Assembly (NCBI GenBank): GCA_029265905.1
Contig: JAJUGR010000003.1
Span: forward strand, 111,556-175,555
Origin: Sporomusaceae bacterium
Lineage (GTDB): Bacteria > Bacillota > Negativicutes > Acidaminococcales > JAJUGR01
Direction of reading: 5' to 3'
Length of the DNA stretch: 64,000 nucleotides
Of the stretch, positions 22,236 through 62,448 are shown one piece after another. The notes below the pieces were generated by a model. That model did no database searches. It was given only the letters and a program-made list of their open reading frames with translations, and was not told where the DNA came from. The first letter of the stretch is position 1. Each line of letters opens with the position of its first letter. Position numbers and translations under genes: made by a program.

Positions 22236-22259
22236 ACCCCCTCTATAACTTTAATTATA

Positions 22260-23192: not shown

Positions 23193-23204
23193 GCCTGACA
23201 CCCC

Positions 23205-24239: not shown

Positions 24240-24925
24240 GCCGCTTCCTCCTCATGCGTCCTGCACGGCAGGCAAAACCGGTGTACCGGCCGTCCCACCG
24301 CCAAATATTGAATGACGCGCTCCACCCTTCCCGTCTTCTGGAAATATTCCAGATAGCGGCGCGTCGTGGTCCGCGAAAGCCGGACGCCATCCGCCACCTC
24401 ATCAGCGGACAAGGGGTTGCCCCGCTCCGCCAAACACTGCAAAATCAAGGTCATGGTCTGGCAGCTGAAATTCTTCGGCATTTCCCCAACCTTCGACTCG
24501 GTGACGCGGCAAATCCCGTCAATGTCCCGTTGCGTCAGCCGGCTTTGCTGGCGCAATTTCAGCCAGAACGCATAGTAAGCTTCCAAGACGGCCTGCAAGC
24601 GGGTGCACGCGAACGGTTTGACCAGGTAGGCGATGACGCCCTGCCGCAGTACATGACTGACGGTTTGTGCATCATCAACCCCGGAAATGGCGATTACGTC
24701 GACCGCCCTGGCCTGCCGCCGAAGCTCCTGCAACACGGCCAAGCCGCCGCGATCCGGCAACAGCAACGCCAGGATCACCAGATCGACCGGATGTTGTTCG
24801 ACAAATGCCAGCGCCTCCTCACCATCTGAAACGGAGGCAACAACCCGAAAGCCATTTGTCGCTTCCGTGAACTGCTTGTTGATGGCTGCTACCATCGGAT
24901 CCTTTTCCACAATCAGGACACGCAC
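24224..24925 (-). CDS. CitB/DctR-like response regulator lacking the phospho-acceptor Asp
   Basis: About 233 residues. Receiver domain begins VRVLIVEKDPMVAAINKQF and keeps the switch lysine (AYLVKPF), but the phospho-acceptor position reads VILALLLPDRGG: the codon is GCG (Ala) where the family has Asp. A C-terminal helix-turn-helix follows (NPLSADEVADGVRLSRTTTRRYLEYFQKTGRVE), as in CitB/DpiA/MalR regulators of citrate or C4-dicarboxylate genes. No histidine kinase gene is nearby. It therefore probably works without phosphorylation. The GTG at 24925 is chosen by alignment with family N-termini; the track ORF is 17 codons longer. Confidence 0.85.
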   Translation of the reverse strand: MRVLIVEKDPMVAAINKQFTEATNGFRVVASVSDGEEALAFVEQHPVDLVILALLLPDRGGLAVLQELRRQARAVDVIAISGVDDAQTVSHVLRQGVIAYLVKPFACTRLQAVLEAYYAFWLKLRQQSRLTQRDIDGICRVTESKVGEMPKNFSCQTMTLILQCLAERGNPLSADEVADGVRLSRTTTRRYLEYFQKTGRVERVIQYLAVGRPVHRFCLPCRTHEEEAAWSAG

Positions 24926-25029
24926 GCTTTCATTGCGCCTATCTTCGTTATAACACTCCGTCTTCAAAAAAAACACCTCCTCGAAGTAACGAACATTTTT
25001 TCATCATGGCAGACGGACCCGCCTTAAGC

Positions 25030-25075
25030 AAAAGGAGGGCGCCCAAGATGACCTTAGCGGCCTGGCGCCCTCCTT
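25030..25075 (-). terminator. Intrinsic terminator after citF
   Basis: AAGGAGGGCGCC and GGCGCCCTCCTT form a 12-base stem followed on the minus strand by TTGC. It divides citDEF from the regulator-citC-citG-lctP group. Confidence 0.8.
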
Positions 25076-25089
25076 GCTGAGACGGAAGT

Positions 25090-26631
25090 TTATAAAATGG
25101 GACGGCGGATAACGTCCAGCACCGTGCCGTCGCGGTATTCAACGACGCCCATGATGTCGTCGCTGTACTCGATTTTCTCCGGCTTGCCGCCTAGCGCATA
25201 AGCTTTTTCTTTCAATGCTTCGATCGACATGATCGGTAGGCCGCTGTTTTTCAGGTTTTCCAGCAGATCGGCCCGGTTCGGGTTAACGGCGATTCCGCGG
25301 TCGGTGACGATAACGTCAACCGTTTCGCCCGGCGTGGAGATCGTTTGGACGGCGTCCGTAACCATCGGCAAGCGGCCGCGCAAGAGCGGCGCGACGATGA
25401 TCGTACATTTGGCGCCGGCGGAGGCATCGGGATGGCCGCCAAGCGCGCCCATCATGATGCCGGAAGAATCGGTCATGACGTTGACGTTGAAGTTCGTATC
25501 AACCTCCGTCGCGCCCAGCACGACGTAGTCGAGCTGATTGACCATCGCCCCCTTGTTCCAGGGGTTGGCGTAGAAGGAACACTCGTATTCGCGGTGTTTC
25601 GGATTGCTGCGGATCGATTCGATCGCCCGCAAATCAAAGCTCTGCACGTCAAACAGCGTCCCGATCAAGCCTTCGTCCAGCAGGTCGCAAAACGGGCCAG
25701 GGATGCCGCCGATCGCCAGTCTGGCGCGGATTTTCTCGCGCAGCATCGTTTCGCGCAGGTATTTTCCGGTCGCGACGGAAGCCGCGCCAGCGCCAAGCTG
25801 CATGGCGAATTCAGGCTTGAAGTAGCCGGCCCGTTCAATGACTTTAGCCGCCATTTTAGCGATGTGCAGGTCGCGGGGGTTGGTCGTCACGCGCAGCGCG
25901 CCGGAGGAAATCCCGGCCGGATTGCCGATTGAATCGACCTTGACGATGTAGTCGACCTGGTACTGCGGGATGCTGACCGGGAAGACCGGATGGTCGACCA
26001 GGTTGTCCGTAATGGCGACCACCGTATCGGCCATGCGGGCGTCGACCATGGCGTAACCCATGGAACCGCAAGCCGCCGGGCCGTCGACGCCGTTGATGTT
26101 GCCGTAGGTGTCGCAGGTTGGTGCGGCAATGAAGGTTACGTCGATCTTCAGTTCGCCGCACTCAATTGCGCGCACGCGGCCGCCGTGCGAGCGGATGACC
26201 GTCGGTTTCGACAGTTGGTTTAACGTCAGGAAACGCCCCAGCTTGTTGCGCAAGCCGCTTGTTTCGGCAGCGATCAGCACGCCTTGTTCAAAATAGGGGA
26301 TCAACTCGTCATTCGTGTCGAGAAATGAACTGGGCGCCAGCGTCAAGTTTTTAATCCCGCGGCGGGCGATGGCGCTAATCACCATATTCATGACATAGTC
26401 GCCGTTGCGGAGGCCGTGATGGAAAGAAATCGTCATGCCGTCTCTCAGGCCCGAAGCATCGATCGCCTCTTCAATCGACTTCAGCACCTTCTCCGTGCCG
26501 GGGAAAACCGCCTTGAGCTTCGGCCCGGCCATTCGTCCGTCCGGCTGCGTGGCAAACGGACCGGCGTACGGTTTCACCTCTTTATAACCCTGTATGCTAA
26601 CGGGTATTTCCCGTCCTGCTGCATTTTTCAT
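25090..26631 (-). CDS. citF: Citrate lyase alpha subunit (citrate:acetyl-ACP transferase)
   Basis: 513 residues, the usual CitF length. It swaps the acetyl group on CitD for citrate, giving citryl-ACP. The product has the expected CitF features: MKNAAGREIPVSIQGYKEVKPYAG, GMTISFHHGLRNGD, IRSHGGRVRAIECGELKIDVTFIAAPTCD and a late VTDRGIAVNPNRADL. The ATG overlaps the citE stop (TAATG), with GGAGGAAGCC upstream, so translation is coupled. The complex acts in the cytoplasm during anaerobic citrate fermentation. Confidence 0.97.
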   Translation of the reverse strand: MKNAAGREIPVSIQGYKEVKPYAGPFATQPDGRMAGPKLKAVFPGTEKVLKSIEEAIDASGLRDGMTISFHHGLRNGDYVMNMVISAIARRGIKNLTLAPSSFLDTNDELIPYFEQGVLIAAETSGLRNKLGRFLTLNQLSKPTVIRSHGGRVRAIECGELKIDVTFIAAPTCDTYGNINGVDGPAACGSMGYAMVDARMADTVVAITDNLVDHPVFPVSIPQYQVDYIVKVDSIGNPAGISSGALRVTTNPRDLHIAKMAAKVIERAGYFKPEFAMQLGAGAASVATGKYLRETMLREKIRARLAIGGIPGPFCDLLDEGLIGTLFDVQSFDLRAIESIRSNPKHREYECSFYANPWNKGAMVNQLDYVVLGATEVDTNFNVNVMTDSSGIMMGALGGHPDASAGAKCTIIVAPLLRGRLPMVTDAVQTISTPGETVDVIVTDRGIAVNPNRADLLENLKNSGLPIMSIEALKEKAYALGGKPEKIEYSDDIMGVVEYRDGTVLDVIRRPIL

Positions 26632-27539
26632 TAGGCTTCCTCCTTCCGGTAAACGCCCGCGGCCGTGGCAAGGGCCAGCACGCGTTGGGCGCGAATGACC
26701 ATCGGCATGTCAATCATCTTGCCGTCGAGCGCAATAACGCCGGATTTTTTCGTCTGGGCTTCCTCAAATACGCCCAGCACGCGGTGCGCGTAATGAATCT
26801 CTTTTTCCGACGGGGTGAAGACTTCGTGGATAATGTCAATTTGGCGCGGATTGACGCAGGACTTGCCGTCAAAGCCCAGCTCCTTGACGAGCTGCACTTC
26901 GTTGCGCAGCGTTTCTTCGTCGCGGATGTCGGAGAAAACCGAGTCAATCGCCTGGATGCCGGCTTCGCGCGCGGCAAATACGATCATGCTTCGGGCCACA
27001 AACAGCTCGCGGCCGGCGGTGATGGCGTTGCCCTTTGTTTTCTCCGTTTTCAGGGAAGCGGAAAAATCCTCGCCGCCGATCGCCAGCGCCATCATGCGTG
27101 GGCTGGCCGAAGCGATTTCATACGCATTGCGGAGCCCTTTCGGCGTTTCCACCGAAACCATGATCTGGATCGAACCCGGCTCATAGCCGTATTCCTTCTC
27201 CGCTTTCGTGATGATGTTGTCGATGTCGCGGATTTCGTCGCCGGTTTCGCCCTTCGGCAGGCGGATGTAATCCGGCTTGGCGGCGAGCAGGCATTCCAGA
27301 TCGTCATAACCCCAAGGCGTGCTGATGTGGTTGATCCGGACGCCGATTTCACAAGAATACTGCAAGTTTTTTATCGCATGGTAAACCAGGTCGCGGGCGC
27401 TGTCCTTCTCCATAACGGAAACGGAATCCTCCACGTCAAAAATGACGCTGTCCGCCCCATAAATATCAGCGTTTTGCAGCAGGCCAGGATTGTTGCCGGC
27501 CGCATACATAACGGTTCGCCGCAATTTTTCTTTCGCCAC
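26631..27539 (-). CDS. citE: Citrate lyase beta subunit (citryl-ACP lyase)
   Basis: 302 residues from the GTG at 27539, which follows GGAGGAGTTATC; the track ORF runs 37 codons upstream through citD. CitE cleaves citryl-ACP into oxaloacetate and acetyl-ACP. Visible marks are RRTVMYAAGNNPGLLQNADIYGADSVIFDVEDSV, VRINHISTPWGYDDL, the Mg-binding MALAIGGEDFSASL and GFDGKSCVNPRQI. It lies between citD (13 bases) and citF (overlapping), the standard citDEF order. Confidence 0.97.
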   Translation of the reverse strand: MAKEKLRRTVMYAAGNNPGLLQNADIYGADSVIFDVEDSVSVMEKDSARDLVYHAIKNLQYSCEIGVRINHISTPWGYDDLECLLAAKPDYIRLPKGETGDEIRDIDNIITKAEKEYGYEPGSIQIMVSVETPKGLRNAYEIASASPRMMALAIGGEDFSASLKTEKTKGNAITAGRELFVARSMIVFAAREAGIQAIDSVFSDIRDEETLRNEVQLVKELGFDGKSCVNPRQIDIIHEVFTPSEKEIHYAHRVLGVFEEAQTKKSGVIALDGKMIDMPMVIRAQRVLALATAAGVYRKEEA

Positions 27540-27552
27540 GATAACTCCTCCT

Positions 27553-27828
27553 TTATTCGTTGCTGGCGCGTTTGATCGCCGTTTTGATCCGCGCTTCGAT
27601 CGTGCAGTCCATGGCGCCCTTTTCCGTCGCATGAACGACGGCGTCTGCAATCCCCGCCGCTTGCAGCGTCTTAGCGATTAACTGCTTAATATGGCTGCCA
27701 TGCTGACGCATCGTCGGGCTGACCAATTCCACCTGGATACCCGCACCGGCCTCCGCCGGGGCTAAGACAACCAGAATATCTGTCGACTCCATCGTGCCGG
27801 CTTGCGCCGTTCTTACTAACTTGCTCAT
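27553..27828 (-). CDS. citD: Citrate lyase acyl carrier protein (gamma subunit)
   Basis: 91 residues. CitD carries the phosphoribosyl-dephospho-CoA arm on a serine; here that segment is QAGTMESTDILVVLAP. GGGGGATTGG precedes the ATG. It is first in the citDEF transcript, so the promoter lies in the 188-base region shared with the divergent LysR gene. Confidence 0.96.
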   Translation of the reverse strand: MSKLVRTAQAGTMESTDILVVLAPAEAGAGIQVELVSPTMRQHGSHIKQLIAKTLQAAGIADAVVHATEKGAMDCTIEARIKTAIKRASNE

Positions 27829-36137: not shown

Positions 36138-37382
36138 CTACATCTCCATAACCAAGCGTCTGGCGTCCAATCGCCTTTTGCAATAAACCGCCCCGGCGAG
36201 CAGCACTAAGGCAATCGCATTAAGCGCTGCTGCAATAATAAACGCCTGTCCGTAACCGTCGCTGGCGGCCTTGACTACCGCCGCCAGCCGCGGGCCGACA
36301 AAGGCGCCGATCCCAACGGTCAGGAACATCACGCCGAAATTGACCCCCAGGTTTTTCGCGCCGAACAATTCGGCCGTGACCGGCGCCATGATCGACAAAA
36401 ACCCGCCGTAGTAAAAGCCGATCGCCATGATCATCGCCACCACCATGGCATACGTGGTCGCCAACGATAACCCCACCATGGCCGCCGCCCCGACAATCAG
36501 CATCAGGCCGATCACCGGGAACCGCCCCAACCGGTCGGATACGGCGCCCCAGGCAAGGCGTCCGCCCGTGTTAGCGACCGACAACAGCATCACGACGCTC
36601 GCCGCCGCCTGCGGCGTCAGCTTCAGCACATCCTGCACGATCGGCGACACGTAGCCAATGATCATCATCCCGGACGTAGCGGCCGCCAAGAACACCCCGG
36701 CCACCAGGTAAAACAGCGGGCTTTTCAGCATCCCCGCCCAGTTCACGTCCGAGACTGCGACCGCCGGTTTTTGCTGCCGCGCCGCGCCAACCGCCTTGCC
36801 CGCCGGCCTATAATCGCGGGGCGCCCGTTCCACAATCAGGCTAGAGAGGCAAATGACCGTCAGACCAATTGCCCCGATCCACCGAAAAGCAGTCAGCACG
36901 TCATAGGCCGCCATCAGCGCAACCGCTGCCGGAGCCCACATGAGCGCGCCCAAGCTGGCACCGCCGGTCAGCAAGCCCGACGCCAACCCCCTCCTGTCCG
37001 GGAAGAAGGCGACCATGTTGCTGACCGTCCCGCCGGGATATACCGTCGCCACGCCAAGGCCGACCAGGCTGGCACATACGTACAAGTGCGTCAGCGAATT
37101 CGTAAAGCTCAGACCCAGCATGCCGCCGCCGAACAAGAGCCCTCCGGCAAACAGCACCTGGCGCGGGGACACGTAGTCCATCGCTTTCCCGACGACAATC
37201 GGCATGAATGATCCCATCGACAACATCAGGGTGAAAGACAGCGACACCTCGGCAGGCGATGCGTTTATCAAAGCGACAAGCGGTTTTTGAAAGACGCTCC
37301 ACGCATAAATGATGCCGGCACAAACATTGATCAATATGCACAAAGCGAGAAACACCCAGCGCTTCGAATCGTATTTATTCAC
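36138..37382 (-). CDS. OFA-family MFS transporter (oxalate/formate antiporter-like)
   Basis: 414 residues with 12 membrane segments. Start GTG at 37382 after GGAGGGTAAC. Features: FLALCILINVCAGIIYAWSVFQKPL at the N-terminus, a long GGTVSNMVAFFPDRRGLASGLLTGGASLGAL loop, and the second-half GGRLAWGAVSDRLGRF. OFA proteins exchange small carboxylates such as oxalate and formate, or take up other acids. It is the last gene before the DUF2202 gene and could belong to the end of the 2HCT-containing operon; 60 bases separate them. Confidence 0.88.
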   Translation of the reverse strand: MNKYDSKRWVFLALCILINVCAGIIYAWSVFQKPLVALINASPAEVSLSFTLMLSMGSFMPIVVGKAMDYVSPRQVLFAGGLLFGGGMLGLSFTNSLTHLYVCASLVGLGVATVYPGGTVSNMVAFFPDRRGLASGLLTGGASLGALMWAPAAVALMAAYDVLTAFRWIGAIGLTVICLSSLIVERAPRDYRPAGKAVGAARQQKPAVAVSDVNWAGMLKSPLFYLVAGVFLAAATSGMMIIGYVSPIVQDVLKLTPQAAASVVMLLSVANTGGRLAWGAVSDRLGRFPVIGLMLIVGAAAMVGLSLATTYAMVVAMIMAIGFYYGGFLSIMAPVTAELFGAKNLGVNFGVMFLTVGIGAFVGPRLAAVVKAASDGYGQAFIIAAALNAIALVLLAGAVYCKRRLDARRLVMEM

Positions 37383-37442
37383 GTTACCCTCCACCAACAA
37401 GCTATTTGCGATCTTCTGACTCCTCGGCAACCGCCGTCCCGA

Positions 37443-38726
37443 TTATTTCACAAAAAGCGGCATTAAAAAGCTAATTTCAAGGATCATGAGCGCGCCGCCG
37501 ATGCGAGTTGAAATCGAGGAGAAGGGCAAGAGCTGCATCCTGTTCGACGCCGACAGGATGGCGATGTCGCCCGAGCCGCCCACGTCGCAGGAGCAAAGCG
37601 CGGCTGTAATGCCGGCCTCCAGCGGCCAAAGCTTGAACAGGCGGCCGAAAATCATCGCGCCGATAAACGCGCCCGCGATGCCCATGATAATGACGAAGAA
37701 GGCGCCAAAAGTGAAGTATTTGCCGAGCAGGGTGATATCAAACGAGGTGATGCCGATGCCCGCAATCAGAACCGGCAGCAGGTTTTTGAGCATGAAATTG
37801 AACCAGAAGTTGGCGTAATCGCAGAATTCATCACTGATCCAGCCGGCCGCTTTAAGGAACAGGGCGAGCAGAATTGTCCAGGCCAGCCCGTGAATTTGAG
37901 GAATCATCGCCCCGATCAAATAGCCGCCTGTCATCAGCGAAATGGAGATCATCAACCCCGCGCCGAGCTTGCCGTAGTCCTTGTCCGAGCCGGGACGGCT
38001 TTCTTCCGCCAAAATGTCATCGCTGGACTCATCCATCAGCAACCGGCCTTGACCATTAAGGTGTTTAGAATCGAGCCAGAGCTTGGAGAGCACGGCGGCG
38101 CTAAGGATAGAAATGACGTTGGCAATCGAGCAATAACCGAGGAACGGGCCAGCCATGCTTTGTGCGTCCCGCCCCAGGATGCCGCTGTACATGGCGGGCA
38201 GCGTGGCGATCGCCCCGGCCGAACCGCCCGACATCATCGGGGCACCGATCATGAAGATCGCTTCAAACACGCCGTAACCGGTGACGATTCCGGCAATCGC
38301 CAGGAAAACAATTGCCATGACCTGCGAACCAATAATGGTTGGCAAGTAGCGGTAAACCGAGCGGACAATCGAGTTCCGGCTGAGCGACAAAATCGAGCCG
38401 ACGAGAATCGCCGCGATGTACAGGTTCTGAAAGCCGCCTTGCATAAACGCCCCGACGCCCTTTTGAATATACTGCGGCACCAAGCCCATCGCCACCATGG
38501 CCCCGGCGCCGAACAGCGGCAAGACCGTCGCCCCGCCCATATAATCATTGATAACGGGAATTTTCCCGCCGATGTAGAAGAAGGCGCCGCCGACCACCAT
38601 CAGGTAGGCAATCGTGCCGACATAGTCTTTCGGCAGCTTGCCGATATAGGCCGTGACCAACACGACGCAGGAAAGCGCTAAGAACGCACCCAAGGAGAGC
38701 CCAAAAATTTTATCGCTCTTAAACAT
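37443..38726 (-). CDS. 2-hydroxycarboxylate transporter (2HCT/CitS family)
   Basis: 427 residues, about 11 membrane segments. The two re-entrant loop motifs of the family are visible: APMMSGGSAGAIATLPAMYS and DVGGSGDIAILSAS. Members carry citrate, malate, lactate or related 2-hydroxyacids, coupled to Na+ or H+ or exchange. It lies 46 bases after the aconitase large-subunit gene, at the end of the sigma-54-driven operon, and so probably imports the substrate of that pathway. The exact hydroxyacid is not determined. Confidence 0.93.
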   Translation of the reverse strand: MFKSDKIFGLSLGAFLALSCVVLVTAYIGKLPKDYVGTIAYLMVVGGAFFYIGGKIPVINDYMGGATVLPLFGAGAMVAMGLVPQYIQKGVGAFMQGGFQNLYIAAILVGSILSLSRNSIVRSVYRYLPTIIGSQVMAIVFLAIAGIVTGYGVFEAIFMIGAPMMSGGSAGAIATLPAMYSGILGRDAQSMAGPFLGYCSIANVISILSAAVLSKLWLDSKHLNGQGRLLMDESSDDILAEESRPGSDKDYGKLGAGLMISISLMTGGYLIGAMIPQIHGLAWTILLALFLKAAGWISDEFCDYANFWFNFMLKNLLPVLIAGIGITSFDITLLGKYFTFGAFFVIIMGIAGAFIGAMIFGRLFKLWPLEAGITAALCSCDVGGSGDIAILSASNRMQLLPFSSISTRIGGALMILEISFLMPLFVK

Positions 38727-38772: not shown

Positions 38773-40020
38773 CTACCTTGGGTCGGTAATCACGCCCGTC
38801 AGCGCCGAAGCGGCCGCCACGGCCGGCGAAGACAAGTAAATCAGCGATTTTTTCGTCCCCATCCGCCCGATGAAATTCCGGTTGTTCGTTCCCAAAACAA
38901 CTTCGCCGTCGCTCATCAGCCCATACGGCTGCCCGCAGCAAAGGCCGCAGCAGGGATGGGTCACCATGCCGCCAGCTTTGATAAAGGTTTGAATATAGCC
39001 CCGCTTCATCGACTCTTTAAACACGTGGTTCGTCGCTGGGATCACGACCAGCTTCAAATGCGGGGCAATTGTTTTGCCCTCTAGAATCTTGGCCGCAACC
39101 TCCATGTCCTCAAGGCTGCCGTTGGTGCAGGATCCGATATACACCTCGTTAATCTTCACGCCTTTGACTTCATCGATCGGGTGCACGTTATCCACTCCCT
39201 GCGGGCAGGACAGTTGCGGCACCAGCTCTTGTGCCTGGTAATGGAGGATCTTCTCGTAATTGGCATCGGCATCGATCTTAATCCAGCTGATTTCATTATA
39301 ATCCATATCATAATATTCAGCTGTTTTCTCGTCCGCTTCAAACAAACCGCATTTTGCGCCGGCCTCCAGGGCCATGTTGGCGATCGTAAACCGGGCCTGC
39401 ATGCTGAGATCGGCCACCGTGCTGCCGGTGAACTCCAGCGATTTATACTGGCCGCCGTCCGACTTGATGTCGCCTAAGATCTTTAGAATAATGTCCTTGG
39501 CGTACACGCCCTGCGGCAGCTCGCCGTCAATCACGATCTTGATCGCCTGCGGCACCTTCATCCACAATTCGTCCGTCGCGAGCGCCGCCGCCATTTCCGT
39601 GTGGCCGATGCCGGTGCAGAAGCAGCCCGCCCCGCCGTAAGTAGTGGTGTGGCTGTCCGTCGCCGTCACCACCGTGCCGGGTCTGGCGTAGCGCAATTCA
39701 TGCATCAGGGAATGGCTGATGCCTTCGCCTTTGTGGAAATTCGGAATGTTGTATTTGCGCACGATCTCAATGCCGTCGCGGTAATGCTCCGGATCGGTTG
39801 TCGCCTGGTTGGTCGGCATGAGGTGGTCAAGAAACATGACCGCCTTTTCCGGGTGCTTGATTTTCTTGACGCCCATTTCATTAAGCGCCCGCTTCAAAAA
39901 GGACGTATAAATGTCGTGCATCATGTAGGCATCAGGGTGGGTGATGACGATGTTGCCCGGCTCCAAATGCTTCTCCCCGGTATTTTTCATAAGGATTTTT
40001 TCTGCCAGCGTATAGCCCAT
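38773..40020 (-). CDS. Aconitase-superfamily large subunit (LeuC/HacA/DmdA-like)
   Basis: 415 residues from MGYTLAEKILMKN; a GGAGGCC in the upstream gene supports this Met over the longer ORF. The catalytic pieces are canonical: VVTATDSHTTTYGGAG, cluster cysteines in GSCTNG and HPCCGLCCG (three needed), and NNRNFIGRMGTKKS. This is the large subunit of a hydrolyase that shifts a hydroxyl group on a dicarboxylate, as isopropylmalate isomerase, homoaconitase or dimethylmalate dehydratase do. With the small subunit upstream it makes a complete enzyme. No leuB-like dehydrogenase is present, so leucine biosynthesis is unlikely. Confidence 0.9.
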   Translation of the reverse strand: MGYTLAEKILMKNTGEKHLEPGNIVITHPDAYMMHDIYTSFLKRALNEMGVKKIKHPEKAVMFLDHLMPTNQATTDPEHYRDGIEIVRKYNIPNFHKGEGISHSLMHELRYARPGTVVTATDSHTTTYGGAGCFCTGIGHTEMAAALATDELWMKVPQAIKIVIDGELPQGVYAKDIILKILGDIKSDGGQYKSLEFTGSTVADLSMQARFTIANMALEAGAKCGLFEADEKTAEYYDMDYNEISWIKIDADANYEKILHYQAQELVPQLSCPQGVDNVHPIDEVKGVKINEVYIGSCTNGSLEDMEVAAKILEGKTIAPHLKLVVIPATNHVFKESMKRGYIQTFIKAGGMVTHPCCGLCCGQPYGLMSDGEVVLGTNNRNFIGRMGTKKSLIYLSSPAVAAASALTGVITDPR

Positions 40021-40024
40021 GAGT

Positions 40025-40534
40025 TTACATGGCCTCCTTTTCCGCTTGTTGCATGCGCTTGATCGTATTGTTGACCAGGCCGCCGTCTTGAATAATGGCA
40101 AAGAGGTTTTGCGGCACTTTCGGGATCGGAAAAGACTTGCCGTTTACCGTGACCTGCTTATTCACCTCGACGGTCAGAATGTCCCCTTCTTCGCAATGGG
40201 CAGGGATCTCCTCGCTTTCAATCAGCAGCATGCCGTTATTGATCGCGTTGCGGAAAAAAATCCGGGCAAACGATTTTGCCACGATGCAGTACACGCCATG
40301 GACGGCAATGCTTTCCGGGGCCATTTCCCGCGACGAGCCGCAGCCGAAATTCTTCCCTGCGACAAGGATGTCCCCGGGCTTAACGGTGGAGGCAAACTCC
40401 GGCCGCAGCGTCTCCAGGCAGTGCGAGCCCATCTCCTTTTTATCGACAATCACGCCGTGCCGGCCGGCGATAATCGTGTCCGTATCGACGTCATCCGGCA
40501 ACTTCCACACTTTCCCGCTGAACTTTTGTTCCAT
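40025..40534 (-). CDS. Aconitase-superfamily small (swivel) subunit (LeuD-like)
   Basis: 169 residues from MEQKFSGKVWKLPDDVDTD; GGAGAGAG precedes it. Family signature: VDTDTIIAGRH, GKNFGCGSSREMAPESI, and FARIFFRNAINNGMLL. It completes the active site of the large subunit encoded four bases downstream. The stop and the large-subunit start are adjacent, indicating coupled translation. Confidence 0.92.
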   Translation of the reverse strand: MEQKFSGKVWKLPDDVDTDTIIAGRHGVIVDKKEMGSHCLETLRPEFASTVKPGDILVAGKNFGCGSSREMAPESIAVHGVYCIVAKSFARIFFRNAINNGMLLIESEEIPAHCEEGDILTVEVNKQVTVNGKSFPIPKVPQNLFAIIQDGGLVNNTIKRMQQAEKEAM

Positions 40535-40548
40535 TTTTCTCTCTCCGT

Positions 40549-41697
40549 TCATTTATTCGGTATGCAGATATGACCCGCCAAAGCCGAGGCGGCAACCGTA
40601 GTTGCGTTTGAAACAAAGACTTTGGCGTCCTTCGTGCCGTTGCAGCCCGTATAGTTGTAGCAGGACGCGGAAAGCATCGTCTCGCCGTCGCCGACCACGC
40701 CCTTGGAGGTGGTCACGCAGCTCGCGCAACCCGGGTTGAGGATCTGCGCGCCGCAATCGATGAAGATATCGATCAGCCCCTCATCGATCGCCGCCAAATA
40801 CACCGCATTTGTGGCCGGCGCGATCGTCAGCCTGGTGTCCGTCGCCACGCGGTTGCTCCTGAGAATCGCAGCGCAAGCGCGCAGCTCTTCCAGGCTCCCG
40901 CCGGTGCAGCCGCCAACAAAGCAGGCTTCTACCGGTGTTTTAGCCAATGAAGCGATTTTTTCCACCGTGTGCAAGTCGCCCGGCAGCGCAACCACCGGTT
41001 CGACGGCGCCCAAAGCGTATTCCCGCTGTTCAGTTGCATTCACCGCTTCTGATCGTTCATTGACGAAAGCCGTCACGGCGCCGGTCCGGCCGGCCAGCAT
41101 GCAGAGGGTCATTTTGTCCGCCAGCGTCAACGCTTGAAGCGCCGGTCCGTAAAACTCAACCGCTTTACCGCCAAAGCCATCCTTGCCGACTTCTCCGAGC
41201 AGTTTCAGCATGAAGTCTTTGCATGTGGCGGGTGCCGTCAGCGCGCCCGTCAGCCGGATTGCCACGGTTTCCGGCACCTGAAATGCCAAGCTGCCGGTCT
41301 TGAGTACGCCGGCCATTTCCGCGTCGCTCAGATCAAGTCCCAGCGCGCCAACTGCGCCATAAACGGCATTATGCTCGCCGCAGGAAACCACCACGTCGCC
41401 CGGCTTTACCGCCTCGTTGACCATCACGTAATATCCGATCCCCTTTGATTGGATAAACTTCAAGTCGCCTTCCTGCGCGGTTTGAATCAGTTCTTTTTGG
41501 ATCTGCGCCGAAGCGAAGCTGCCCGCCGGAATATCGTGATCTAAAATAATAACGACTTTTTCCTTGTCCTTGATTTCAGGCACGCTGACCTGGTTGAAAA
41601 CAGCGTGGCCAGGACCATCCGTAATGACACAGAACATTGGCGCCAGCTGCGCTATTTCGCCGGCCTTTTTATTTAATAAACTTTCAATGAAAGCCAT
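40549..41697 (-). CDS. Aconitase-superfamily large-subunit paralogue with altered active site
   Basis: 382 residues, collinear with LeuC-type large subunits: ILDHDIPAGSFASAQIQKELIQ, KGIGYYVMVNEAVKPGDVVVS, and the iron-sulfur cysteines GGCTGGS and PGCASC. But the usual DSHT motif reads CGEHNAVYGAVGA, and the substrate-binding NRNFxGR motif reads ASCYNYTGCNGTK, losing both Arg and the Asp-Ser pair. The chain is a little shorter than usual. It is therefore either an enzyme with a different substrate or a non-catalytic partner of the neighbouring pair. Ends four bases inside the small-subunit ORF region, so it belongs to the same transcript. Confidence 0.85.
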   Translation of the reverse strand: MAFIESLLNKKAGEIAQLAPMFCVITDGPGHAVFNQVSVPEIKDKEKVVIILDHDIPAGSFASAQIQKELIQTAQEGDLKFIQSKGIGYYVMVNEAVKPGDVVVSCGEHNAVYGAVGALGLDLSDAEMAGVLKTGSLAFQVPETVAIRLTGALTAPATCKDFMLKLLGEVGKDGFGGKAVEFYGPALQALTLADKMTLCMLAGRTGAVTAFVNERSEAVNATEQREYALGAVEPVVALPGDLHTVEKIASLAKTPVEACFVGGCTGGSLEELRACAAILRSNRVATDTRLTIAPATNAVYLAAIDEGLIDIFIDCGAQILNPGCASCVTTSKGVVGDGETMLSASCYNYTGCNGTKDAKVFVSNATTVAASALAGHICIPNK

Positions 41698-41781: not shown

Positions 41782-42888
41782 CTATCTGGCAAACCCGGAC
41801 CAGACCGGCTGGCCGGTATACGTTTTCGGCTGCTCCTGGCCGGACAAAACGCGCAGTGCGCCCGCCGCCAGCGCCTCCATTTCAAACTCGCCGGGCATGA
41901 CCGTAATCGGTGCGATCCAGTCGACCATGCCGGACAACTGGCTGACCAAATACTTGTCATGGGAAATGCCGCCGGTAAAGATAATTCCGTCCACTTTTCC
42001 CAAGAGCGCCGCGGCACAGGCCCCGACGCTCTTGGCGATCTGGTAGATCATGGCGTCGTAAATGAGTTTTGCATACTGGTCGCCCCGTCCGATCCTCGCG
42101 ACCACTTCCCGGGCGTCCGACGTCCCCAGGTGATCGACCAGGCCGCCGTTTTTGCTGATTAAGTCCAGCAGATCCTGCTGCGAATACTTGCCCGAAAAGC
42201 ACAGCTTGATCAGCGGCGCGGCCGGAACGGCCCCCGCCCTGGTGGGCGCCATCGGCCCGTCGCCTTGGGCGATATCGTTGGAGTCGACCATGCGGCCTTT
42301 TTTGTGGGCGGTCACAGAGATTCCGCCACCGATATGGCAGATGATCAAGTTCATCTCCTCATAACGCGAGCCGGCCGCCGCCGCATAGCGGATGCCGATT
42401 TCCTTTTGGTTAAGCGCATGAATCTTGCTTTCCCGGCAGATTTTCGCCAGGCCGCAGACGCGCGCCACTTCCTCAAACTCGTCAACGTCAGGCGGGTTGA
42501 CTACGAAAGCCTGGCCGCCGTACGTCTGGGCAAACTCATGGGCCAATTGGGCGCCAAACACCGCCGGATGCTTGACGGTAAAGCCAATTTTGGCATGGTG
42601 CAGCAGGATGTCGTTGACGGGATAGACGCCGCCCTCAAGCGATACCAGTCCGCCGCCCCGGCCAACAAAAGCATCGACGCCGGCGAGCGAAATGTTGTTT
42701 TTGGCCAGCTCATTTAAAATCGTTTCTTTGCGATAAGGCAACTGGTCCTGCAGTTCGGCGTACCCTTTCAAGACTTCTGCGTCGTGGTCGATATTGAAGC
42801 TGAACACTTTTTGATCGTTTTCGAACATGGCTACCTTGGTGGAGGTGGAACCGGGATTGATCGCTAGAATTTTGACCGTCTTATTCAT
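41782..42888 (-). CDS. buk: Butyrate kinase (first copy)
   Basis: 368 residues. ASKHA acetate-kinase fold: KILAINPGSTSTKVAMFEND at the N-terminus, VGRGGGLVSLEGGVYPVND, NLIICHIGGGISVTAHKKGRMVDS and DGIIFTGGISHDKYL. It transfers phosphate from an acyl phosphate (butyryl-, isobutyryl- or other branched acyl) to ADP. The ATG at 42888 has AAGGAG upstream. Directly follows the ptb gene, giving an acyl-CoA to ATP module for the acyl-CoA made by the upstream oxidoreductase. A second butyrate kinase gene lies at 51091. Confidence 0.93.
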   Translation of the reverse strand: MNKTVKILAINPGSTSTKVAMFENDQKVFSFNIDHDAEVLKGYAELQDQLPYRKETILNELAKNNISLAGVDAFVGRGGGLVSLEGGVYPVNDILLHHAKIGFTVKHPAVFGAQLAHEFAQTYGGQAFVVNPPDVDEFEEVARVCGLAKICRESKIHALNQKEIGIRYAAAAGSRYEEMNLIICHIGGGISVTAHKKGRMVDSNDIAQGDGPMAPTRAGAVPAAPLIKLCFSGKYSQQDLLDLISKNGGLVDHLGTSDAREVVARIGRGDQYAKLIYDAMIYQIAKSVGACAAALLGKVDGIIFTGGISHDKYLVSQLSGMVDWIAPITVMPGEFEMEALAAGALRVLSGQEQPKTYTGQPVWSGFAR

Positions 42889-42898
42889 ATTCATCTCC

Positions 42899-43798
42899 TT
42901 AGCATGCCGCCGCGGCTAACACCACAGACATATATTTATCCTCCACCGTGGAGGAGCGGGAGGTCAGCACAACCGGCACCTTCGCCCCGACAATAAAGCC
43001 GGCGGCCTTGGCCCCCCCGGAGAAAGTCAGCGCTTTGATCAACAGGTTGCCGGCCACCAGGTTCGGTACCAGCATCAGATCCGTGTCGCCTGCCACTTCA
43101 CTGTTGAAGCGTTTGATCGCCACCGCTTCCTTGTCGATTGCCAAATCGTAGGATAGCGGCCCTTCCACAACACAGCCCGTGATTTCCCCGGCGAGGTTCA
43201 ACTGCTTCAGTTCATAGGCGTCAACGCTTTCCGACAGCTTCGGATTCACCTCTTCGGCCGCCGCCATGACCGCCACCTTCGGCTTATCGATGCCCATGTT
43301 CCGCATGGTCAGCACGGCGTTTTCAAGGATCTGCCGCTTTTGGGCCAAATCCGGCGTCGTGTTGAGCGCCACATCGGTAACGGCCAGCAGTTTGTGGTAA
43401 GTCGGCACTTCCAGAAAGGCCAGGTGCGACATGACCCGTCCGGTCCGCAAGTTGCTCTCCTTGCTGACAATGATCTTCATCAGCGTCGCGGTTTCCAGCA
43501 GTCCCTTCATGATAAAATCCGCTTCGCCATCATGAATCATCGCCACGGCTTTTTGCGCCGCCTCTTCATGGCTGCCGGCCTGGACGACAAACGCCGCATC
43601 GGCCGGGAAGCCCACTTCTTCCAGATAGGCGGAAATAACGGGTGCATTCCCGATCAGAATCGGCGTGGCGATGCCGTTTTGATAAGCCAGGAGCAGCGCT
43701 TCAAGCGTATGCTTGTCTTCAGCCGCCACAACCGCCACGCGTTTTGGCGCGTTCTCCTTCAGCCGCTGCACCAACTGGGCAAAATTCGCAATGCTCAT
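42899..43798 (-). CDS. ptb: Phosphate butyryltransferase (acyl-CoA phosphotransacylase)
   Basis: 299 residues from MSIANFAQLVQRL. Family marks: RVAVVAAEDKHTLEALLLAYQNGIATPILIG, EADFIMKGLLETATLMKIIV, VTDVALNTTPDLAQK and LMLVPNLVAGNLLIKALTF. It converts acyl-CoA and phosphate to acyl phosphate, feeding butyrate kinase. Its start overlaps the gamma subunit gene by four bases (ATGA). Confidence 0.93.
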   Translation of the reverse strand: MSIANFAQLVQRLKENAPKRVAVVAAEDKHTLEALLLAYQNGIATPILIGNAPVISAYLEEVGFPADAAFVVQAGSHEEAAQKAVAMIHDGEADFIMKGLLETATLMKIIVSKESNLRTGRVMSHLAFLEVPTYHKLLAVTDVALNTTPDLAQKRQILENAVLTMRNMGIDKPKVAVMAAAEEVNPKLSESVDAYELKQLNLAGEITGCVVEGPLSYDLAIDKEAVAIKRFNSEVAGDTDLMLVPNLVAGNLLIKALTFSGGAKAAGFIVGAKVPVVLTSRSSTVEDKYMSVVLAAAAC

Positions 43799-44361
43799 CC
43801 CTGCGCCCCCTTGCCGGCGGCGCATTGGCTTTCCGCCAACTCCTTGCCAGCCCGAATCGCGGCTTCGTTCAGCGGCAGGAATTTTGCCTTGGACGCCATC
43901 TTCACCCGCATCGTTTCAATCACCGGCTCGACCGCCAGCGCCTGGCTTGCGCCCAGATAGCTGCCCAGAATGACCATGTTGGCGCTTTTTTCCGAACCGA
44001 GCTGTTCCGCCAGTTCATTGGCTGGGATGTAGAGCGCCCGCACGTCGCTTCTTGCCACTTTTTTATGCACCAGCGAGCTGTTCACGATGATCGTGCCGCC
44101 CGGCTTCACCCAGGATTCAAACTTCGCTAGCGACGGCTCGTTCATGGCGATGACCGTATCTAGCCGCGTCACCACCGGCGAACCGATCGCCTCGTCCGCA
44201 ATAACGACCGTACAATTGGCCGTGCCGCCGCGCTGCTCCGCCCCGTAGGACGGGAAAAAGGTTGCGTTTTTCCCCGCGGCCGTCGCGGAATAACCGAGCA
44301 GCTGGCCGATCAGAATAACGCCCTGCCCGCCAAAGCCTGCAATAATCAAGCTGTTTTCCAA
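43795..44361 (-). CDS. 2-oxoacid:ferredoxin oxidoreductase gamma subunit
   Basis: 188 residues starting at TTG after GGAGGTGGCAGCG. LIIAGFGGQGVILIGQLLGYSATAAGKNATFFPSYGAEQRGG is the classic gamma-subunit start; MNEPSLAKFE and LGAYLGAS-like segment (VILGSYLGASQALAV) follow. Part of the four-subunit enzyme with 44375-46403. The enzyme makes acyl-CoA, CO2 and reduced ferredoxin; the adjacent Ptb/Buk suggests a branched-chain or short acyl product. Confidence 0.93.
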   Translation of the reverse strand: MENSLIIAGFGGQGVILIGQLLGYSATAAGKNATFFPSYGAEQRGGTANCTVVIADEAIGSPVVTRLDTVIAMNEPSLAKFESWVKPGGTIIVNSSLVHKKVARSDVRALYIPANELAEQLGSEKSANMVILGSYLGASQALAVEPVIETMRVKMASKAKFLPLNEAAIRAGKELAESQCAAGKGAQG

Positions 44362-44374
44362 CGCTGCCACCTCC

Positions 44375-45109
44375 TCAATTGTTTCTTAATTCCCCGAGCG
44401 GGAAGTACGGAATGCTTTTTTCTTGAATCCATTTCAGGCTATCTTCCGGCGATACGCCCCAGTTGGTCGGGCAGTTGCTCAGCAGCTCCACGAATGAATA
44501 CCCTTTGCCCTCGAGCTGGTTTTTGAACGCCTTTTCGATGCCGGCCTTTGCCTTGAGCACATTGGCAGGCGTATTCAGGGCGAACCGCGCCACATACACC
44601 GGCGCCTCCAGCGTGTTGATGATTTCCGCCATCCGCATCGGATAGCCGGCTTGCGCAGGGTCGCGCCCGTTTACGCAGGTCGTCGCTTTTTGCCCGACCA
44701 AGGTCGTTGGCGCCATTTGACCGCCGGTCATGCCATAGATGCCGTTGTTGACGAAAATCGTCGTGAGTTTTTCCCCGCGGTTGGCGCAATGCATGATTTC
44801 CGCCAGGCCGATCGCCGCCAAGTCGCCATCCCCCTGGTAGGTAAACACCAGGTTATCCGGGCGGCAGCGTTTGTAGCCCGTCGCCACGGCCGGCGCGCGT
44901 CCGTGGGCGGAGACAACCATGTCGAAGTTGTAGTATTCCATGCTTAACGTGGCGCAGCCGATCGGCAAAATGCCAACCGCTTTTTCCCGCATGTCGAACT
45001 TGTCAATCGCTTCCGCGACTAATTTACAAACCATGCCATGCAAGCAGCCGGGGCAGAATCCGCTGACCGTCGGCTGCAACGAAACGGGTCTCGCATACGT
45101 CTTTTGCAC
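44375..45109 (-). CDS. 2-oxoacid:ferredoxin oxidoreductase beta subunit (TPP-binding)
   Basis: 244 residues. Thiamine diphosphate motif GDGDLAAIGLAEIMHCANRGEKLTTIFVNN, substrate-side cysteine segments FCPGCLHGMVCKL and GCATLSM, and TTLVGQKATTCVNGRDP, as in VOR/KOR beta subunits. The ATG overlaps the last base of the alpha-subunit frame, so translation is coupled. Confidence 0.94.
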   Translation of the reverse strand: MQKTYARPVSLQPTVSGFCPGCLHGMVCKLVAEAIDKFDMREKAVGILPIGCATLSMEYYNFDMVVSAHGRAPAVATGYKRCRPDNLVFTYQGDGDLAAIGLAEIMHCANRGEKLTTIFVNNGIYGMTGGQMAPTTLVGQKATTCVNGRDPAQAGYPMRMAEIINTLEAPVYVARFALNTPANVLKAKAGIEKAFKNQLEGKGYSFVELLSNCPTNWGVSPEDSLKWIQEKSIPYFPLGELRNN

Positions 45110-46179
45110 TATTGGGCCCCTCCCTTGCTGATCAAGTCTTTGACCGCGCCGACCACTTCATCCGGCGACACGACAAAACCGGCGCCGCGCGTATAGGCGC
45201 TGACCGGCGTCCGTCTGGCGACGGCGCATTTGACGTCCTCCACCATCAGGGCCGGGATGCACATCTCCACAGCCAAAATATGCTTCACCTGGCTGTAATC
45301 CAACTTGTCAAACGCGATGTACGGGAAAGGCGATACCGTGATCGGCCGGATAAGCCCGACCCGGAACCCTTCCTTGCGCAGTTCGCGAATGGCCGTTTTG
45401 GCCACGCGGGCGCTGGTGCCGTAGGCGGCGATGACAAGGTCGGCGTCTTCCGTCAGGTATTCCTCATAGCGCACGTCTTCTTGCTGCCAGCGTTCGTACA
45501 TAGCCGCGCAGTCGCGCTGGAACTGTTCGAGCTTCACCGTGTCATTATCAAGCGAGCGGTTGACACGCCGCTCCCGGCCCTGGCAGCCGTCAATCTGCCA
45601 GTCGCGCTTTTCGGGGAACGCGGTTTTCGGCTCCGGCAGCACAACCGCTTCCATCATGCCGCCGATGACGCCGTCCGCCAATAAAATCACCGGATTGCGG
45701 TCCCGGTCGGCATAATCGAACGCTTCATAAGTCAGGTCGACCGCTTCCTGCACCGTCGCCGGGGCCAGGGCGATCACCTTGAACCCGCCGTGTCCGGGCG
45801 CTTTCGTCGCCACATTGTACTGGTTCTGCCCCGGGTAAATCTGGCCCGTGCCCGCGCCGGTCCGGGCGACGTCAACGATGACCGCCGGCAGCTGCGCCCC
45901 GGCCAGCGTCGAGATGCCTTCCGTCTTCAGGCTGATGCCCGGGCTCGACGACGACGTCATCGCCCGCACGCCCGCCGCCGCCGCGCCAATCACCATGTTG
46001 ACCGAGGCAATTTCGCTCTCGCCCTGGATGAACACGCCGCCGACTTCCGGCAGCCGTTTCGTCAAATATTCAGGAATTTCGCTCTGCGGCGTAATCGGAT
46101 AGCCGGCAAAAAACCGGCACCCGGCCCGTACGGCCGCTTCCGCAATCGCTTCATTCCCCTTCATGAATTTTTTCTCCAC
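45109..46179 (-). CDS. 2-oxoacid:ferredoxin oxidoreductase alpha subunit (VorB/KorA type)
   Basis: 356 residues, GTG start with GGAGGGGAAAAC. MKGNEAIAEAAVRAGCRFFAGYPITPQSEIPEY, RAMTSSSSPGISLKTEGIS, GLIRPITVSPFPY and IPALMVEDVKCAV are typical. Close paralogue of the partial gene at 1-846. The gene order delta, alpha, beta, gamma is complete here. Confidence 0.94.
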   Translation of the reverse strand: MEKKFMKGNEAIAEAAVRAGCRFFAGYPITPQSEIPEYLTKRLPEVGGVFIQGESEIASVNMVIGAAAAGVRAMTSSSSPGISLKTEGISTLAGAQLPAVIVDVARTGAGTGQIYPGQNQYNVATKAPGHGGFKVIALAPATVQEAVDLTYEAFDYADRDRNPVILLADGVIGGMMEAVVLPEPKTAFPEKRDWQIDGCQGRERRVNRSLDNDTVKLEQFQRDCAAMYERWQQEDVRYEEYLTEDADLVIAAYGTSARVAKTAIRELRKEGFRVGLIRPITVSPFPYIAFDKLDYSQVKHILAVEMCIPALMVEDVKCAVARRTPVSAYTRGAGFVVSPDEVVGAVKDLISKGGAQ

Positions 46180-46426: not shown

Positions 46427-47107
46427 TTACTTCTCCCAGGGCGCCTTGATGCAGCGCGCAACGCCGAGCACGGCGACATGCGGCAGTTCGTCCTGCACCG
46501 CCGCCGCCAGCTCAGCCGGCGCGGCTAAAAATGCCGGCACATACCCGGTTTCTTGCAGCATGGCGGCCGTCTGCCTATAGCCGCCCACCACATCAGCCAG
46601 CGTCGTCTGTTCGCCAAAATTCGGATTGCAAATGACGCTCACGCTTCTCACCCGGGCGGCGCGGGCGATCGCCTCAAGCCCTTGCGCCATATCGCCTTCG
46701 CTGCTTGAAAACGGGCGGAAGCAATTGGCCACAAAATATGCCGCCACCGGGTCACCCCAGGCCTCGGCGAGCTGGCCGATCACCCGGGCGCCAACCACAT
46801 TCCCGCCTACGTCAAGAATGGCAATGTTCGCGGGGTCTTTGATTTTTTCCAGCACGGCGTTGGGAATGATCGGCGAATCAAGAAACTGATAGCCCGTCTC
46901 AAGCATTACGTTGTTTTTCCGCAACAAGTCGACCGCCTCCCGTGAGCGAAACAGCGGCTTGGTTTGATCCATGTCAAAAAACCGTACGGTTCTTCCCTGG
47001 CCCGCCAACCGCAGCCCCCAATGAATGGCGATTTCCGATTTGCCGCAGCCCGTTTCGCCTAAAAAGATAAACACCCGTTTATTATCCGCAAGCATTTTCT
47101 CCCCCAC
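46427..47107 (-). CDS. P-loop NTPase associated with 2-oxoacid oxidoreductase genes
   Basis: About 226 residues. Walker A GETGCGKSEIA, an acidic segment VRFFDMDQTKPLF, and a Walker-B-like IAILDVGGNVVGARVIG; then VSVICNPNFGEQTTLADVV. This looks like a SIMIBI-class ATPase (MinD/ArsA/CooC relatives), many of which mature metallo- or iron-sulfur enzymes. The GTG at 47107 follows GGGGGCGG; the ATG at 47095 is an equally possible start. Placed between the AhpD-like gene and the ferredoxin subunit gene, it may help assemble or activate the oxidoreductase or the aconitase-type enzymes. That role is inference. Confidence 0.75.
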   Translation of the reverse strand: MGEKMLADNKRVFIFLGETGCGKSEIAIHWGLRLAGQGRTVRFFDMDQTKPLFRSREAVDLLRKNNVMLETGYQFLDSPIIPNAVLEKIKDPANIAILDVGGNVVGARVIGQLAEAWGDPVAAYFVANCFRPFSSSEGDMAQGLEAIARAARVRSVSVICNPNFGEQTTLADVVGGYRQTAAMLQETGYVPAFLAAPAELAAAVQDELPHVAVLGVARCIKAPWEK

Positions 47108-47147
47108 GGCAACCGCCCCCAGACAGCCTGCTTGCTCGCCAAGCGGC

Positions 47148-47528
47148 TTATTTTTCTTCAATTGGTTCAAACACATTCAGACCCGGGGTGAAGCCGGTCA
47201 CGCCCGTCAAGAAGAACAGCATGCGCAACACTTCGCCCAATTCGTCAACCGTTGCGCCGTTTTCGATCGCCAGCTTGGCATGGACGTCAATGGTGACTTG
47301 CGTTTTCGTCGCAACCCCGACCGCAAAAATAATCAGTTCGCGGTATTTTTTCGGAATATGCTTCATGTCGGCATTGCAGATTTCATACATTTGGGAAAAG
47401 GCCTTCAAAATGCCCGGGTCGTTGGCCATCTGCCGATGGAACTGCAGCACGCTGCCGCCCCGCTGCACCGCCAACTTGTCCAGTAATTCGTGCGCTTCTT
47501 TCAAGATCTCCGGATTTGTCTGCTTCAT
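47148..47528 (-). CDS. Carboxymuconolactone decarboxylase (AhpD-like) family protein without redox cysteines
   Basis: 126 residues, all helical: a segment KKYRELIIFAVGVATKTQVTIDVHAKLAIENGATVDELGEVL aligns with the AhpD/CMD core, where the family normally has CxxCxxxH. Here the two cysteines are replaced (Thr and Val) while the His remains, so thiol chemistry is unlikely. Similar small CMD proteins act as decarboxylases or as oligomeric helper proteins. It is the second gene of the sigma-54 operon. Ribosome site GGGGAG. Confidence 0.8.
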   Translation of the reverse strand: MKQTNPEILKEAHELLDKLAVQRGGSVLQFHRQMANDPGILKAFSQMYEICNADMKHIPKKYRELIIFAVGVATKTQVTIDVHAKLAIENGATVDELGEVLRMLFFLTGVTGFTPGLNVFEPIEEK

Positions 47529-47577: not shown

Positions 47578-48924
47578 CTAACCGCCGTATTTTTGCGTCA
47601 AAAACTCCTTGCCTACCTGCGGGAACAGGATGTACGTCAGCACATCTTCATCGCACCTGGCCAGGCCGCCAATCTCCGCTTTCATTTTCTCGAACTCCGG
47701 CTCCAGCAAATCAGCCGGCCGGCAGGTGATCCGCCGTTCGGCGCCAAGGACTTTTTCTTCCAGATCAGCCGCAATCTCGCCCGGCGGGGTGCCGTAGAGT
47801 CCGCGGATATAGGCCTTGCTTTCCGTCGGAATCACGGAATACCGCTGGCCCGTGATCACATTCATCGCCGCCTGTACGCCGACAATCTGGCTCATCGGCG
47901 TGCCGAGCGGCGGGTAGCCGAATTCTTTGCGCACCAGATGTGTTTCCGCCAGCACCTCGTCAATGCGGTCGCCGGCGTCCATGGCTTTCAATTGATGCTC
48001 CAGGTTGGACAGCATCCCGCCCGGAACCTGGTGCTGGAACACGGCGATATCGACGCCCGTGAATTTGCTTTCATACTCGCGGTACTTTTGCCGGACGCCG
48101 AGCAAATAGCGGTTGATCTCTTCCAATAGGCCCAAATCCAGCCCAGTGTCGCGCGGCGTGCCCTGCAAAGCCACAACCATGCTTTCCGCCGGCGGATGCG
48201 CCGTTCCGAGCGCGAGCGCCGACAGGTCGGTGTCAACCACATCCACCCCGGCCTTGATCGCTTCCCAATAAGCTAAATCAGCCAAGCCGCCCGTGCAATG
48301 GCAGTGAAGATGGATCGGGACGCTGACCGCCGCTTTCAGCGCCTTCACCAATTCGTAGGCCGCCGTCGGCGTCAACAAGCCGGAGCCGTCCTCGACGTGG
48401 ATTGACTCAACGCCCAACTGCTCAAACTCCTTCGCGAGCTTTGCGTACAGCTCCAGGTTATGAACGGGGCTGATGGTATAGGGAATCTGCCCGGCCGCAA
48501 CCTTCCCGGCCTTCTTGACAGCGCGGATCGCCGTTTCGCAGTTTCGCAGGTCGCCGAGGATATCGAAAATCAGGAACACATCGATGCCAGCCTCGGCGGC
48601 CTTCTCCACGAATTTTTCGACCACATCATCCGGGTAGTGTCTGTAGCCCAGCAAATTCTGCCCGCGCAACAGCATGCGCAAGGGCGTGTTGGGCATGCCT
48701 TTTTTGAAGGCGCGCAGGCGCTCCCACGGATCCTCCTGCAAAAACCGGATGCAGGAATCAAATGTCGCTCCGCCCCATACTTCAGCGCTAACAAAACCAA
48801 CGCGGTCAAGCTGGCCCAAAATCGGGAGCATATCTTCCGTTCTTACGCGCGTCGCCAACAGCGATTGCTGGCCGTCCCGCAGATCAACGCTGGTTAAGCG
48901 CAGCGGCTTATTTGTTTCAAACAT
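47578..48924 (-). CDS. Carboxyltransferase-fold enzyme (OadA/PycB-like) lacking biotin domain and carbamylated Lys
   Basis: 448 residues. HMGL-like TIM barrel: [66 protein letters not shown] and metal-binding HLHCHCTGG, followed by the conserved C-terminal carboxyltransferase region ([17 protein letters not shown]). This is the carboxyltransferase part of oxaloacetate decarboxylase or pyruvate carboxylase. However, the segment that normally reads IKDMAGLL, with the lysine that is carbamylated and handles carboxybiotin, reads HVEDGSGLL. No biotinyl domain follows. It may therefore be a lyase/aldolase or decarboxylase that does not use biotin. First gene of the operon, with a sigma-54 promoter upstream. 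Confidence 0.85.
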
Positions 48925-62382: not shown

Positions 62383-62448
62383 AATAATCAACCTCCATCT
62401 TCGTTGTTCAAAAAACCAGTCCCCCTACTCGATAGCATAACGCCTGAT

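Follow-up and report, generated by a model that had tools for sequence, protein, structure and literature searches.

The window analyzed here, a stretch of 64,000 nucleotides from a Sporomusaceae bacterium, encodes a 382-residue homologue of aconitase and IPMI large subunits, here called P, that is catalytically disabled and is followed by the genes of a small subunit, D, and an intact large subunit, C2 (Table 1); opposite P, the plus strand has no open frame. We surmise that the D-C2 hydro-lyase probably has P as a third subunit without catalytic function, in a stabilizing or regulatory role. The initial annotation had offered two choices, an enzyme for a substrate lacking the usual carboxylates or a regulatory or structural partner; we now favor the second and put less weight on the first, because the kinship with C2, the constant company of D and C2, the loss of its own small subunit (D1), the overlap of the P and D genes and the fusion of P to D in some relatives point to a subunit, while P has lost its catalytic residues and, at a later stage, the cysteines, which makes a catalyst unlikely.

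Table 1. Features in and around the P cluster, with positions in the window and the basis of each assignment
Feature	Position	Strand	Basis
MFS transporter, L-lactate/oxalate-formate type	36138..37430	(-)	NCBIfam
2-hydroxycarboxylate (2HCT) transporter	37443..38726	(-)	Pfam, NCBIfam
C2, intact LeuC-type large subunit (DSHT, GSCTN, NRNFIGR)	38773..40020	(-)	Pfam, NCBIfam, alignment
D, small (swivel-domain) subunit, LeuD type, 175 aa, GSSRE intact	40025..40552	(-)	Pfam, NCBIfam
P, catalytically disabled aconitase/IPMI large-subunit homologue	40549..41697	(-)	Pfam, NCBIfam, PDB comparison, alignment, predicted fold
Butyrate-kinase-type acyl kinase (Buk)	41782..42894	(-)	Pfam, NCBIfam
Phosphate acyltransferase, Ptb type	42899..43825	(-)	Pfam, NCBIfam
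2-oxoacid:ferredoxin oxidoreductase gamma subunit	43795..44370	(-)	NCBIfam
2-oxoacid:ferredoxin oxidoreductase beta subunit	44375..45109	(-)	NCBIfam
2-oxoacid:ferredoxin oxidoreductase alpha subunit (VorB type)	45109..46179	(-)	NCBIfam
Biotin-dependent carboxyltransferase, OadA/PycB type	47578..48924	(-)	PRK09282, 683 bits vs cut-off 402

Membership of P in the aconitase superfamily is evident from both sequence and fold homology. P matched the Pfam Aconitase model (PF00330) with an E of 2.2e-47 and 162 bits vs. a cut-off of 28.7, but its scores with the NCBIfam subfamilies of IPMI/homoaconitase large subunits reached at most 270 bits, well under the curated cut-offs of 385-410 expected of active large subunits (270 against 385; 261 against 410). 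Annotation by family name would label P a LeuC-type enzyme, an activity that is probably absent. In a sequence comparison with the PDB, the best solved relatives were the IPMI and homoaconitase large subunits of M. jannaschii. Structure prediction, based on an alignment of the window's own proteins and the related loci found, with P relatives left out, gave a model (pLDDT 83.7, pTM 0.85) in which P is predicted to keep the IPMI large-subunit fold, as judged by a TM of 0.88-0.91 to these M. jannaschii subunits (structure match 4kp1/4kp2). The P and D genes share 4 bases (ATGA), in which the TGA of P and the ATG of D overlap, and a 4-base gap separates D from the likely start of C2, for which the ORF list gives TTG 40101 but ATG 40020 is likelier.

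The initial annotation had described P as an aconitase-like protein without its two catalytic motifs, encoded beside an intact LeuC/LeuD-type pair, and the alignment confirmed both observations: GEHN stands in place of DSHT and CYNYTGCNG in place of NRNFxGR, with GGCTGG and PGCASC also present, and the motifs of D and C2 are intact. In the residue numbering of mitochondrial aconitase, P of the window carries the replacements D165>G, S166>E, H147>Y, E262>R, N446>C, R447>Y and R452>C, and retains D100, H101, H167 and the three cluster cysteines. Six catalytic or substrate-binding residues (H147, D165, S166, E262, R447 and R452) are present in every C2, C1 (the large subunit most closely related to P, see below) and LeuC compared; all six are replaced in the window P, which thus lacks the residues of an active large subunit. 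The only position of the catalytic set that varies among C2, C1 and ordinary LeuC is N446. Across the family, H147, D165, S166, R447 and R452 are replaced in 11/11 unfused P and E262 in 10 of the 11, with R452 most often giving way to Cys, whereas D100, H101 and H167 are kept except in one short frame (G345) without the D100/H101 region. A further claim, that the iron-sulfur cysteines persist, holds for the window P, where all three are present as in active large subunits, and for six relatives (7/11 unfused P), but fails as a family feature: the cysteines have been lost together in the other four, which make up one clade (G380, G017, G007 and G022), and in both P-D fusions (G058 and G321), where H167 has gone as well. 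Because of these joint losses, cluster binding is, as read from the sequences, not the core function of the P family.

Orthologues of P were readily found. The window's own genome harbors a second P with 42% identity, again with D and then C2 downstream, and further relatives are spread over several other families, so that the altered protein is more than a chance event. When 381 genomes of the class, which its gene content suggests may be Negativicutes, were searched with a profile, the scores set unfused P and the intact C1 (at least 310 bits) apart from ordinary LeuC (at most 268 bits); matches at 330-345 bits were rejected as P members, nearly all of them being intact C1. With a C2 profile, the same 381 genomes yielded 13 close loci (at least 659 bits) in 12 genomes, the window's genome having two, and P adjoined C2 in 13/13, a constant association with an active paralogue as expected of a pseudoenzyme partner; the remaining C2 matches, next below these loci, were the second large subunit of intact D1-C1-D2-C2 clusters. 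The frame of P was open at all loci, across many families. Outside the class, no P was seen in samples of ~390-400 genomes of the phylum, a thin sampling, in which one genome (G515) had an intact D1-C1-D2-C2 cluster. A search of genome contigs with the single protein returned only ordinary aconitases and LeuC. Viral contigs gave no match, and plasmids gave only matches below 60% identity (best ~30%), the annotated ones being LeuC or aconitase.

In 2/13 loci (G058 and G321), P and D make up a single fused polypeptide (536 and 603 aa), and C2 is a separate gene downstream; since the C2 genes of these two loci are sisters, the fusion is, on this phylogenetic evidence, one event. In four others (G007, G022, G017 and G343), D is fused to C2 instead. 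D therefore appears to be a part that can be joined to either partner. As evidence for a complex of P with D and C2, fusions between neighbors that are transcribed together count for less than fusions between distant genes.

The trees point to the origin of P. P formed one clade, with a support of 100/100 without the fusions and 100/99 with the fusions included, and P and intact C1 together made up one side of a branch (100/99). In addition, the C2 sequences from P clusters and from intact clusters were sister groups (100/100), and D from the P clusters grouped with D2 and not with D1 (100/98), D1 being absent from every P cluster. The branching of P followed that of C2 apart from G343, which has a long P branch in the tree without fusions; in the tree with fusions the fused P were also placed differently, a placement that carries a warning of long-branch attraction. 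Based on the sister relation to C1, the grouping of D with D2 and the sister relation of the C2 genes, P is evidently a C1 that has decayed and no longer has a small subunit (D1) of its own. We propose that D1 was lost from a cluster of the D1-C1-D2-C2 type and that the once-active C1 decayed as a catalyst but stayed on beside D2-C2 as its partner, giving P. Four intact clusters (L088, L089, L090 and L093) hold two small-large pairs in this order, with a LysR-like regulator near three of them; their C1, the sister clade of P at the same site upstream of D2-C2, keeps all catalytic residues except for Thr at the N446 position and, unlike P, has its own small subunit. The initial annotation had counted homologues with standard motifs in the same operon position as evidence against it, and such homologues do lie upstream of D2-C2 elsewhere, but as these come with a small subunit of their own and belong to a distinct sister clade, we judge that this objection does not apply. 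Intact C1, cysteine-bearing P, cysteine-less P and fused P survive side by side, so that the change from enzyme to partner subunit may be readable step by step.

P is under purifying selection, although it changes faster than C2. The dN/dS of P was ~0.12 for the G007/G022 pair, with dS near saturation; across four pairs, the dN of P was 2.7-4.6 times the C2 value, and 21 columns are invariant among the 11 unfused sequences at ~30-40% identity. The former active site takes part in this constraint: its columns had a conservation of 0.70 vs. an average of 0.51 among unfused P, a value which random column sets reached in 0.02% of trials, and the cleft is therefore not free of selection. Lack of conservation of the altered residues, which the initial annotation had also named as an argument against it, does not apply either, given that GxH, mostly Tyr at R447 and Cys at R452 in most members are shared, even though the S166 and E262 positions vary widely. 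We surmise that the old cleft may still hold a ligand or, in cysteine-bearing members, an iron-sulfur cluster.

The conservation of this cleft could reflect a bound ligand or, alternatively, a new activity, and to that extent it counts against P as a subunit and leaves room for P as an enzyme. P could be a neofunctionalized enzyme, either a remodeled hydro-lyase or an iron-sulfur enzyme of another kind, with D as a shared small subunit and with a substrate without the usual carboxylates, at another step of the same pathway. Besides the cleft itself, this view can draw on the cluster cysteines of seven members, on D100, H101 and H167 in nearly all unfused P and on replacements that have become fixed in part (Tyr at H147, Gly at D165 and Cys at R452 in most), and within the superfamily AcnX shows that new chemistry can go with a different set of residues in the active site (PMC8184944). 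We nevertheless deem it unlikely, as the positions of S166 and E262 are filled by many different residues, the gene has been kept in four members and both fusions despite joint loss of the cysteines, and P clusters provide one small subunit for two large subunits. Less likely still, P might act on behalf of the operon or the enzyme as a sensor, of the iron-sulfur or redox/iron kind; Cys at R452 would then possibly saturate the cluster, and later lineages would have lost it. The canonical cysteines and the additional Cys in most cysteine-type members are consistent with such a sensor, but this Cys persists in 2/4 members devoid of the others and is thus not tied to a cluster. That P is a decaying remnant without present function, as its fast evolution and lost catalytic residues might suggest, is highly improbable in view of the open frames, invariant columns, low dN/dS and co-inheritance with C2.

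Favoring P as a non-catalytic subunit, we propose that D and C2 would be the working parts of the hydro-lyase and that P would bind D-C2 and stabilize or regulate it. To our knowledge, proteins of the aconitase fold are thought of as working enzymes, with few exceptions such as IRP2, which has the aconitase fold without aconitase activity, is put to a non-catalytic use and was matched to P through 6vcd; IRP2 is an animal RNA-binding regulator, however, whereas gene order ties P to a dehydratase. The beta and gamma subunits of mitochondrial NAD-isocitrate dehydrogenase are catalytically dead, are kept with an active subunit and stabilize or regulate the enzyme, as we propose for P; they resemble this putative subunit as paralogues without catalysis beside an active one, but belong to another enzyme family. 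In comparison to the archaeal-type IPMI/homoaconitase large subunits (LeuC/HacA; PF00330, NF001614, TIGR02086), P is alike in fold, domain order and an operon with a LeuD-type small subunit, but has lost catalytic and substrate-binding residues, scores far below the family cut-offs and comes in addition to, rather than instead of, a working large subunit. Aconitase X (AcnX), like P, has a divergent aconitase fold without most of the active-site residues of mitochondrial aconitase (PMC8184944), but P is nearer to IPMI (TM 0.9 vs. ~0.6) and adjoins an intact enzyme; with no AcnX model among its NCBIfam matches and with cysteines at the canonical aconitase sites (compare PMC10040528), we rejected P as an AcnX. 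Our literature search turned up no paper joining isopropylmalate dehydratase with a pseudoenzyme and nothing on such a subunit.

The gene neighborhood of P points to an organic-acid fermentation pathway in anaerobic bacteria that has not yet been assigned. An OadA-type carboxyltransferase or an RraA-type protein is encoded in 11/11 unfused P clusters, including both copies of the window's genome, where the two OadA-type genes share 68% identity; a pyruvate- or 2-oxoacid:ferredoxin oxidoreductase occurs in 8 of the 11 and Ptb together with Buk in 6. Transporters in the clusters are of the 2HCT, KdgT or MatC/CitMHS type, and no recurring dehydrogenase was seen among the neighbors. Near the two fused loci (G058 and G321) no OadA or RraA was found, and the pathway proposed here is confined to the unfused clusters. 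The activity common to the OadA and RraA types is oxaloacetate decarboxylation, the RraA-fold HMG/CHA aldolase being known to decarboxylate oxaloacetate (PMC5065237), and the neighbors as a whole suggest a route via oxaloacetate and pyruvate to acetate. In this route, D-C2 would probably dehydrate an imported hydroxy-dicarboxylate, for which a tartrate isomer is our best guess, toward oxaloacetate; OadA- or RraA-type enzymes would then decarboxylate oxaloacetate to pyruvate, if they run in that direction, and the 2-oxoacid:ferredoxin oxidoreductase, Ptb and Buk would convert pyruvate to acetate and ATP. With tartrate, for example, the dehydration to oxaloacetate is redox-neutral, and a step of this kind would suit these genes, but we offer it tentatively and with considerable doubt. 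In one locus (L045, 11947-13752; G036), C2 is fused to an RraA-type aldolase/decarboxylase domain, tying the dehydratase to that reaction.

A route through citrate lyase, by which Acidaminococcus fermentans ferments trans-aconitate and citrate (PMC3035267), was also considered for the P module. It is weakened because CitF is missing in the carriers G321, G334 and G345, all three near-complete, as well as in G058 (79% complete), and because genomes of genus g7 that are free of the module do have CitF. The route is unlikely to be general to P carriers. A bolder and rather improbable extension of P as a subunit is that its former active site has become a sensing site, allosteric or cluster-based, through which a three-part hydro-lyase is controlled; that enzyme would convert a hydroxy-dicarboxylate, perhaps meso- or D-tartrate, directly to oxaloacetate. 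If true, both the dehydratase architecture and the pathway would be new to description.

Several other features were recorded along the way. Between the OadA-type and 2-oxoacid oxidoreductase genes of the window lies a 249-aa ORF (46427-47176, minus strand) without a Pfam (E<=1e-8) or NCBIfam (E<=1e-10) match. A full-length aconitase of 649 aa with its small-subunit domain is encoded at 60442-62391 (minus strand), and other LeuC-type genes are found elsewhere in the genome. The window also comprises a cluster of the citrate/citramalate-lyase type at 20676-27650 (minus strand) with CitE-like, CitF, CitC ligase and CitG genes together with a lactate permease, and the genome has five CitF homologues. 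Finally, PrpR-type regulators are divergent from two P clusters (L084, 10797-12677; L087, 10985-12898).
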